From a virus, in the IMG/VR virus record IMGVR_UViG_3300037189_010251, positions 1-45,915 of that record: 45,915 nt of DNA, one strand, 5' to 3'. A program made the translations under genes and the position numbers. The stretch's first letter is position 1. The number at the start of each line of letters is the position of its first letter. The notes beneath the pieces are model-generated. The model was given only the letters and a program-made list of their open reading frames with translations. It searched no databases and was not told the origin of the DNA. Below are positions 34,777 through 45,915 of this stretch, one piece after another.

Positions 34777-35081
34777 TTCTTTCTCTTTCTAGGCGACACA
34801 AACTTTTTATCATCATAGTCATTCATAGCGCCTTTAAAGTTTCCTTTGTTGCGGGCTATGGCTGCTCTTCGTTCAAAACTTGTAAATCCACCCCATACAC
34901 CAAACTCTTCTTTGCTTTTTAGTGCAGTAATTAAGCAATCTCTTCGTACATCACATTGATTACAAATTGTTTTTGCTGTTTTTATTTCTTGTGAAGTCAT
35001 TGGTAATTCATTTTTACCGTAGAACAGTTCGGATGGCATTCCGTTGCAGTATGCGTCGTCACGCCAATCTCTGCGAGCCAT
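34773..35081 (-). CDS. WhiB-family regulator
   Basis: 102 aa from ATG 35081. Four Cys at 12 (DDAYC), 40 and 43 (ICNQCDV) and 49 (RRDC), then GVWGGFTSFERRAAI (61 on), the full WhiB iron-sulfur signature with its GVWGG turn. Binds a [4Fe-4S] cluster and interacts with the primary sigma factor of actinobacteria. Phage WhiB proteins can mimic host ones and alter gene expression. An in-frame longer reading from 35210 would give a 43-aa N-terminal addition inside the RuvC gene and is less likely; the overlap of 23 bases with RuvC remains. Strong evidence for an actinobacterial host. Confidence 0.9.
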   Translation of the reverse strand: MARRDWRDDAYCNGMPSELFYGKNELPMTSQEIKTAKTICNQCDVRRDCLITALKSKEEFGVWGGFTSFERRAAIARNKGNFKGAMNDYDDKKFVSPRKRKK

Positions 35082-44910: not shown

Positions 44911-45357
44911 ATGGCTTGGCCACTTAAGAAAACACGTAAGGTCACATGTCCCTACGGGACTAAAGGTACTCAGTGGATGTCAGGTTGGCACCAAGGAGTA
45001 GATATTGGTGCTCCAGTTGGTGATCCAGTTTTTGCTGCAGCTGATGGAGTAGTTATCGGTGTAGGTATCTGGGGCAAGAGCTTTGGTAAATACTCACCGG
45101 TTATCAAGCATGGAAAGCATTACACAATTTATGCACATGTTGCTAAGTCTCTTGTTAAAGAAGGTGACAAAGTAAAGCTTGGTCAGCACATTGCTGATGT
45201 TGGCATTGAAGGTAACAGCGGTGGTCCGCATCTTCATTTTGAAACCCAGTACAGCCCTAACTGGACTGTTGGTGGTTCGCATGATCCTAAATGGCTTCTT
45301 GCTTACAAGGGTCGTCATCCACTAAAGCGTCTTATTGCTGCAGTCAAGAGTAAGTAA
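44911..45357 (+). CDS. M23 family peptidase (endolysin candidate)
   Basis: A 148-aa zinc metallopeptidase of the LytM type: WHQGVDIGAPVGDPVFAAAD (H27, D31), YTIYAHVAKS (H76), GGPHLHFETQYS (H107, H109). All zinc and catalytic residues are present. It would cut peptidoglycan crossbridges. No signal peptide, so it needs a membrane partner such as a holin; the 33-aa peptide next to it may help. TATAGGAG precedes the ATG. Confidence 0.9.
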   Translation: MAWPLKKTRKVTCPYGTKGTQWMSGWHQGVDIGAPVGDPVFAAADGVVIGVGIWGKSFGKYSPVIKHGKHYTIYAHVAKSLVKEGDKVKLGQHIADVGIEGNSGGPHLHFETQYSPNWTVGGSHDPKWLLAYKGRHPLKRLIAAVKSK

Positions 45358-45640: not shown

Positions 45641-45675
45641 ACCCAGTCCTCTGTTAATTCATGGCTGGGTTTTGT
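45641..45675 (+). terminator. Leader terminator after promoter 45601
   Basis: ACCCAGTC (45641-45648) pairs with GGCTGGGT (45663-45670; one G-U), loop 14, followed by TTTGTTAT. It lies close to the start expected from the promoter, so only a short leader RNA would be made unless read through. Confidence 0.55.
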
Positions 45676-45732: not shown

Positions 45733-45812
45733 GGGGCAGGAAGGTTTCGACTAGACATTAAGACCCCAAGAGGGTATTGTTTAGGACCAGAGTTCAATTC
45801 TCTGCTGCTCCA
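45733..45812 (+). ncRNA. Miniature tmRNA-like RNA (tRNA-like domain only)
   Basis: Acceptor arm GGGGCAG (45733-45739) pairs with CTGCTCC (45805-45811), with G-U at the third pair, the alanine identity element of tmRNA. A D-loop-like GGTTTCGACT follows without a D stem, as in tmRNA. CTAGACA (45751-45757) pairs with TGTTTAG (45778-45784), like the P2 helix, closed by an ACCC/GGGT hairpin (45763-45766 with 45772-45775). GGAC then leads to a T arm CAGAG-TTCAATT-CTCTG (45788-45804) and a discriminator A (45812). The ends closely resemble actinobacterial tmRNA, but the roughly 280-base messenger and pseudoknot part is missing. CCA is not fully encoded. Could be a decoy of SmpB/AlaRS or a degenerate tmRNA; a normal tRNA does not fit. 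Confidence 0.75.
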
Positions 45813-45840
45813 CAAGGGGCCACGACCGTAAGGAACACAC

Positions 45841-45915
45841 ATGTCAGAAGAAAAATATGCCTATGAAGTCATTGAGTACGTAAGTATTGATGAACTAAAT
45901 GACGAAAATAGAGAA
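45841..45915 (+). CDS. Small acidic protein, 5' part (partial)
   Basis: Starts at ATG 45841 with GTAAGGAACACAC upstream; 25 residues visible, SEEKYAYEVIEYVSIDELND and on, running off the window. Too short for assignment. It follows the tmRNA-like gene by 28 bases. Confidence 0.6.
   Translation, partial: MSEEKYAYEVIEYVSIDELNDENRE

Follow-up and report, generated by a model that had tools for sequence, protein, structure and literature searches.

The window, as we call the whole 45,915-nucleotide stretch of viral DNA analysed here (positions 1 to 45,915 of IMG/VR record IMGVR_UViG_3300037189_010251), belongs to a tailed phage with genes for a major head protein, tape measure, DNA polymerase, DnaB helicase, primase and endolysin. 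The polymerase has its nearest phage relatives among proteins annotated as DnaE-like. A WhiB gene at 34863-35066 (73.6 bits) makes an actinobacterial host likely; among 14 control genomes, WhiB was detected in Corynebacterium only. Near the right-hand end, an 80-base RNA gene on the plus strand (45733-45812) lies between an endolysin/peptidase gene (44911-45357, plus strand, matching PHROGs endolysin and peptidase families) and the start of an unidentified gene cut by the window end (45841-45915, plus strand). No conserved promoter was found directly upstream of the element. About 60 bases upstream, at 45642-45673, CCCAG...CTGGG forms an inverted repeat with TTTT after it, which by eye resembles a terminator; the scanner made no call there.

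The original prediction had described the element as a tmRNA reduced to its tRNA-like domain (TLD), and the parts that it named are present in the sequence. The acceptor arm pairs GGGGCAG (45733-45739) with CTGCTCC (45805-45811) and includes the expected G-U third pair, G3-U70, formed by 45735 and 45809; the discriminator A73 follows 3′ of the stem at 45812. Pair counts support the stem, and positions 70 and 73 were also scanned in viral relatives. The D-loop without a D stem, read as GGTTTCGACT, is confirmed, with its stemless GGTTTCGAC motif at 45743-45751, a region that contacts SmpB in known TLD–SmpB structures (PMC3968760). P2, a 7-bp helix as foreseen, joins CTAGACA (45751-45757) to TGTTTAG (45778-45784) and pairs in relatives. 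It is closed by the predicted 4-bp hairpin, ACCC-CAAGA-GGGT (45763-45775), which is supported by the fold and by relatives and occupies the site where a tag frame and pseudoknots would otherwise be. The TAGGAC linker and the 5-bp T arm with its TTCAATT loop (CAGAG-TTCAATT-CTCTG, 45788-45804; paired in relatives) complete the domain. The RNA folds at −27.5 kcal/mol and is more stable than its shuffles (z = −2.66). A 3′ CCA is not encoded in the window, where the bases after A73 read CAA, so the host would have to add CCA to the RNA.

Covariance searches bear out the assignment to the tmRNAs. The Rfam model RF00023 (gathering score 47 bits) matches 45733-45815 with 61.3 bits (E 1.2e-21), the match end at 45815 being the CCA position that reads CAA, and RF00023 is the only RNA family that Rfam detects in the whole window. 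Our own model R1, which has the element itself among its 38 sequences, scores it at 86.4 bits. The full-window RF00023 match spans model positions 1-374 with the interior deleted, so that the messenger part and all pseudoknots are missing; no tag reading frame with a stop codon is present, merely 20 bases between the P2 strands, occupied by the hairpin. ARAGORN made no call for the element in the window, presumably because it expects a messenger part. A split or permuted tmRNA with its messenger part elsewhere was considered and rejected: the halves stand in normal order, 5′ then 3′, unlike those of a permuted two-piece tmRNA, no second above-threshold tmRNA occurs in the record, and the permuted tmRNA models have no match anywhere in the window. 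Forcing RF00023 onto the upstream DNA aligned a short stretch at 34.9 bits, below the cut-off. The prediction would have been refuted by a complete or split partner, and across 51 virus records only TLD-only matches lie above threshold. A phage gene with a complete tRNA-like domain and no messenger part, the element meets the criterion for a TLD-only tmRNA, and its identity as a tmRNA reduced to its tRNA-like domain is confirmed.

Related elements are abundant in viral DNA. A first scan of IMG/VR with a 22-base pattern and a short spacer gave 16 exact matches; wider patterns gave at least 120 loci with the GGTTTCGAC D-loop and 26 loci with GGATTCGAC. From these IMG/VR DNA-pattern scans we extracted at least 155 viral loci in addition to the window, representing at least 113 distinct element sequences, 75-82 nt long with few exceptions among the matches listed. 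The length of the spacer, or insert, is bimodal in IMG/VR: matches cluster at 24-54 bases (at least 120) and, for the full-length ones, at 285-315 bases (at least 120), and only 8 fall at 55-85 bases, of which about five are apparently genuine. These rare loci (L185, L186, L187, L188 and L191) have a full acceptor stem and a 55-85 base insert between D-loop and GGAC, and are possibly intermediates or carriers of very small tag frames. At two others (L184 and L190) the pattern had matched an upstream hairpin containing GGTTTCGACC, which is followed by an apparent TLD-only element with a variant D-loop. ARAGORN called full tmRNAs at L084, L131, L132 and L152, and these calls were set aside; in L131 and L084, for which the sequence was inspected, the called 5′ half has no tmRNA-like D-loop, and a 5′ half that perfectly fits the TLD-only form can be read about 80 bases away from the 3′ end.

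The majority of relatives are uncultured phages. Cultured carriers comprise six Streptomyces phages (Shaeky, LuckySocke, GiJojo, BRock, pSt2308 and Alone3) and Stenotrophomonas phage Jojan60; no close relatives of the window were found among cultured phages. All five records opened (Shaeky, LuckySocke, BRock, pSt2308 and Jojan60) leave the element unannotated, and each time it lies inside or beside a tRNA array. Two of the Streptomyces phages have the D-loop variants GGUUUUGAC and GGGUUCGAC. Two further cultured phages gave separate observations. In Microbacterium phage Armstrong (L177), a weak TLD-like match at 1438-1527 (R1 37.2 bits, no Rfam tmRNA match) directly upstream of two tRNAs could be either a diverged relative or a chance match. 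Synechococcus phage S-CRM01 (L176) has an unannotated permuted tmRNA at 1458-1679 (RF04321 82.5 bits; cyano_tmRNA 74.3 bits) that adjoins tRNAs.

The conservation and covariation on which the prediction depended are found in these relatives. In a 38-sequence alignment, 96.0% of cells over 22 pairs hold standard pairs, a value that drops to 35-52% when partners are slid by 1-3 columns as a control, and 17 of the 22 pairs have changes on both sides. All four stems covary: acceptor stem, P2, cap hairpin and T arm. Within this alignment, 92% of P2 cells and 100% of T-arm cells are paired, with both-side changes in six of the seven P2 pairs; the cap hairpin is retained in relatives, with such changes at all three pairs counted. 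Among the matches listed, the 113 distinct sequences are 99-100% paired in the T-arm and acceptor pairs and 90-99% paired in the first five P2 pairs, which show 62-75 double changes per position; the acceptor stem is fully paired in 155 of 156 loci. The search patterns themselves prescribed the D-loop, GGAC and most of the T loop, so conservation there does not count as independent evidence. Among loci of the window's own lineage, the 80 bases of the element hardly change, and the flanks are wholly different between locus groups. Judged by this comparison of sequences, the element is a selected RNA. It might still be asked whether a phage or host tmRNA is decaying here as a pseudogene, given the missing messenger part and the existence of full-length phage tmRNAs, but there is next to no room for that reading: nearly all of the 113 distinct sequences among the matches listed are fully paired in acceptor stem and T arm, the bimodal insert lengths leave only about five genuine intermediates, and the invariance of the G3-U70 and A73 identity elements, in a conservation pattern that contradicts decay, rules it out.

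The surroundings of the element vary in its relatives. About 30 loci have a tRNA no more than 1 kb from the element, in many cases at a distance of 1-9 bases (four 'tmRNA' rows in the tRNA-proximity listing are the element itself), and at 24 loci a putative major head protein gene, recognized by eye without a profile, starts about 200 bases downstream. Two relatives (L014 and L005) have the terminase large subunit within about 500-650 bases after the element; in L014, a close relative of the window, the order is DnaB (minus strand), endolysin (plus strand), element, tRNA-Trp and terminase. The record that holds L005 and L007 (IMGVR_UViG_3300027749_000047, 136 kb) contains two TLD-only elements and two WhiB genes about 67 kb apart; assembly may have fused two related phages there, each of about 67 kb. 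No SmpB is encoded in any of the 51 virus records, including the window, so host SmpB would have to serve.

Integration at ssrA is known for some phages, which bring along the 3′ end of that gene (PMC10865867), and the element could on that precedent be an attachment-site relic, a piece of host ssrA in an integrating phage. Fragments resembling the 3′ end of tmRNA do lie by tyrosine integrases in Gordonia phage Yeezy (L178) and Tsukamurella phage TPA4 (L179), where they are probably attachment sites in host ssrA, but they score only about 23 bits with R1 against 86 for the window. The element moreover retains its 5′ half as well as its 3′ half, with compensatory changes between them. No tyrosine integrase was found in the window, and only 5 of the 51 TLD-only records have one. 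With covarying halves and no integrase in the window, we regard an attachment-site relic as ruled out, its residual likelihood being very slight.

Cellular genomes contain few copies. The main pattern gave 15 matches in 84,980 cellular genomes, five of them true TLD-only elements with 7-bp acceptor stems. Two of these five lie beside phage head or terminase genes, including one that adjoins a terminase gene in a Bacteroidota (Sinomicrobium) MAG, and one lies beside a phage-family glycosyltransferase. Matches in Microvirga, SAR92/Porticoccaceae, Cyanobacteria, Bacteroidales and Spirochaetes in GTDB were set aside, with acceptor pairing at only 2-5 of 7 positions; they are most likely parts of larger tmRNAs. 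Each of the five genomes with a TLD-only copy has a second, longer tmRNA match apart from that copy, 367-398 nt in length, at 130-154 bits in four genomes and 69.9 bits in the fifth, an Acidimicrobiales MAG (G051, L316) in which this match is 390 nt long. In the Mycobacterium MAG, the acceptor sequences of the TLD-only copy and the full-length tmRNA differ (both lie in the same orientation), so the former did not arise by recent duplication of the host gene, which again speaks against a pseudogene. Model R1 found matches in 2 of 296 Actinomycetota chromosomes, one being the centre genome itself and the other a tRNA-like sequence. The TLD-only tmRNA is a viral element.

Alanylation by AlaRS hinges on G3-U70 and A73 (PMC3968760). 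Because the main search pattern fixed U70 and A73, though it left G3 free, both fixed positions were scanned separately with other bases. With an otherwise identical pattern, any base but T at position 70 gave zero IMG/VR matches, as did any base but A at position 73, compared with at least 120 matches having U70 and A73. G3 is present in 113 of 113 distinct sequences among the matches listed, although A3-U70 would pair too. This invariant G3-U70 is the strongest mechanistic clue that base conservation offers, and argues that charging matters beyond titration of SmpB. For mycobacteriophage DS6A, a TLD-only tmRNA has been reported that inhibits the endogenous tmRNA when present in E. coli (Mao et al. 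2009, as described in PMC11915505 and PMC4131195), and a DS6A-like molecule is reported to be inhibitory whether or not it was chargeable (PMC4131195). Since inhibition of that kind does not need charging, selection on the phage elements probably sees something charging-dependent, and the strict alanine identity may reflect another role. It separates simple SmpB titration from models with a charged RNA on the ribosome.

The observed anatomy, RNA conservation, invariant alanine identity, lack of a phage SmpB or messenger part and viral distribution suggest a function that we can only infer: the element, alanylated and bound to SmpB, probably competes with host tmRNA at stalled ribosomes. Its expression is an inference, in which the element would share a transcript with adjoining phage genes or tRNAs and be cut to size as tRNAs are, the host supplying CCA where the DNA encodes none. 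Host AlaRS would then charge the RNA with alanine, and host SmpB and EF-Tu would bind the charged form; for neither the element nor its relatives are there data on expression, charging or binding. Competition with host tmRNA for SmpB and stalled ribosomes, and the benefit to the phage, are likewise inferred. A nascent peptide might be accepted onto the element's alanine, and as no tag frame or stop codon is offered, we propose that host trans-translation would be inhibited or diverted. The absolute retention of G3-U70 and A73 strengthens the inference of an alanylated, SmpB/EF-Tu-bound, tagless and inhibitory RNA. We also count in favour of the competitor model the placement with tRNA genes, head-to-tail or close by at many loci and in or beside the tRNA arrays of cultured phages, and the separate longer tmRNA in cellular genomes that have a TLD-only copy; the inhibition reported for DS6A agrees with it. 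It counts against the model that complete tmRNAs occur in other phages, so that opposition to trans-translation is not uniform among phages.

Strict conservation of G3-U70 and A73, unneeded for titration alone, would suit a tagless but working rescue factor, in which Ala-TLD–SmpB takes the nascent chain and lets the ribosome be cleared or adds one or more untemplated alanines (alanine capping or tailing). A role of this sort has been suggested for mitochondrial tmRNAs without a tag frame, which are conserved with SmpB and thought to help with incomplete mRNAs (PMC11915505). No termination step is apparent, however, and the sole in vivo datum, from DS6A in E. coli, is inhibition of endogenous tmRNA; we consider rescue unlikely, though worth keeping in view. 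A more speculative and rather doubtful idea is that the widespread phage RNA class is no passive inhibitor but an active re-programmer, entering stalled ribosomes repeatedly with host SmpB and EF-Tu to add untemplated alanines, or one alanine cap, in place of the degradation tag. SmpB with a TLD fragment is cited as supporting template-free polyalanine synthesis in vitro (Shimizu and Ueda 2006, cited in PMC3929946), and active alanine addition would explain the invariant alanine identity although inhibition reportedly needs no charging.

Phages also carry tRNA genes against tRNA-cleaving defences. The frequent position of the element among tRNA genes would fit some other role for an RNA that resembles a tRNA and carries alanine, such as that of a decoy for a defence enzyme which the host directs at tRNA or tmRNA, but we think this improbable: no specific evidence points to it, the element has no anticodon to bait anticodon nucleases, and its retained tmRNA-type core fits SmpB binding.

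The findings imply interference with bacterial trans-translation, or its re-use, by many phages. In the literature found, the TLD-only phage tmRNA is a curiosity of one mycobacteriophage; the data here reveal a large phage RNA family, missed by ARAGORN and unannotated in cultured Streptomyces and Stenotrophomonas phages. The cultured carriers are natural, lab-ready phages for testing, and a natural TLD-only RNA could seed inhibitors of trans-translation, a current antibiotic target.

Like standard bacterial and phage tmRNAs (RF00023), the element has an acceptor stem with G3-U70, A73, the D-loop, P2 and a T arm; unlike them, it has only a short hairpin between the P2 strands, the region that in those RNAs holds a tag frame and pseudoknots. 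Jakobid and oomycete mitochondrial tmRNAs (RF02544) have also lost the messenger part and kept the tRNA-like domain, and co-occur with nucleus-encoded SmpB, but they are usually circularly permuted organelle genes and their function is thought to be rescue, not inhibition. The tmRNAs of Mallomonadaceae plastids, about 65 bp long (PMC11915505), are similarly CDS-less but are plastid genes known from just two sequences. The closest precedent, absent from the original prediction as was the wide spread of the class, is DS6A: the element joins the kind known from that phage, with no sequence comparison made between the two, and the kind is widespread. Whereas the DS6A type was described from a single mycobacteriophage, the window phage has WhiB, with an actinobacterial host likely, and no tyrosine integrase, and the relatives are mostly uncultured phages, with one Stenotrophomonas phage and one Sinomicrobium MAG copy by a terminase. 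No report of a wider phage family of TLD-only tmRNA was found in the open-licence literature; new here are the scale, the additional cultured phages and the strict alanine identity, an extent previously unrecognised in the literature found. The TLD is bound by each of SmpB, AlaRS and EF-Tu (PMC3968760), and fragments engineered from it attach to SmpB and are taken into the ribosome together with EF-Tu (PMC3929946, PMC3968760). A UUCG-capped engineered TLD has been crystallised with SmpB, and an alanyl-TLD–SmpB–EF-Tu complex has been solved on the ribosome (PMC3929946, PMC3968760). In design, the natural phage RNAs match these engineered constructs.
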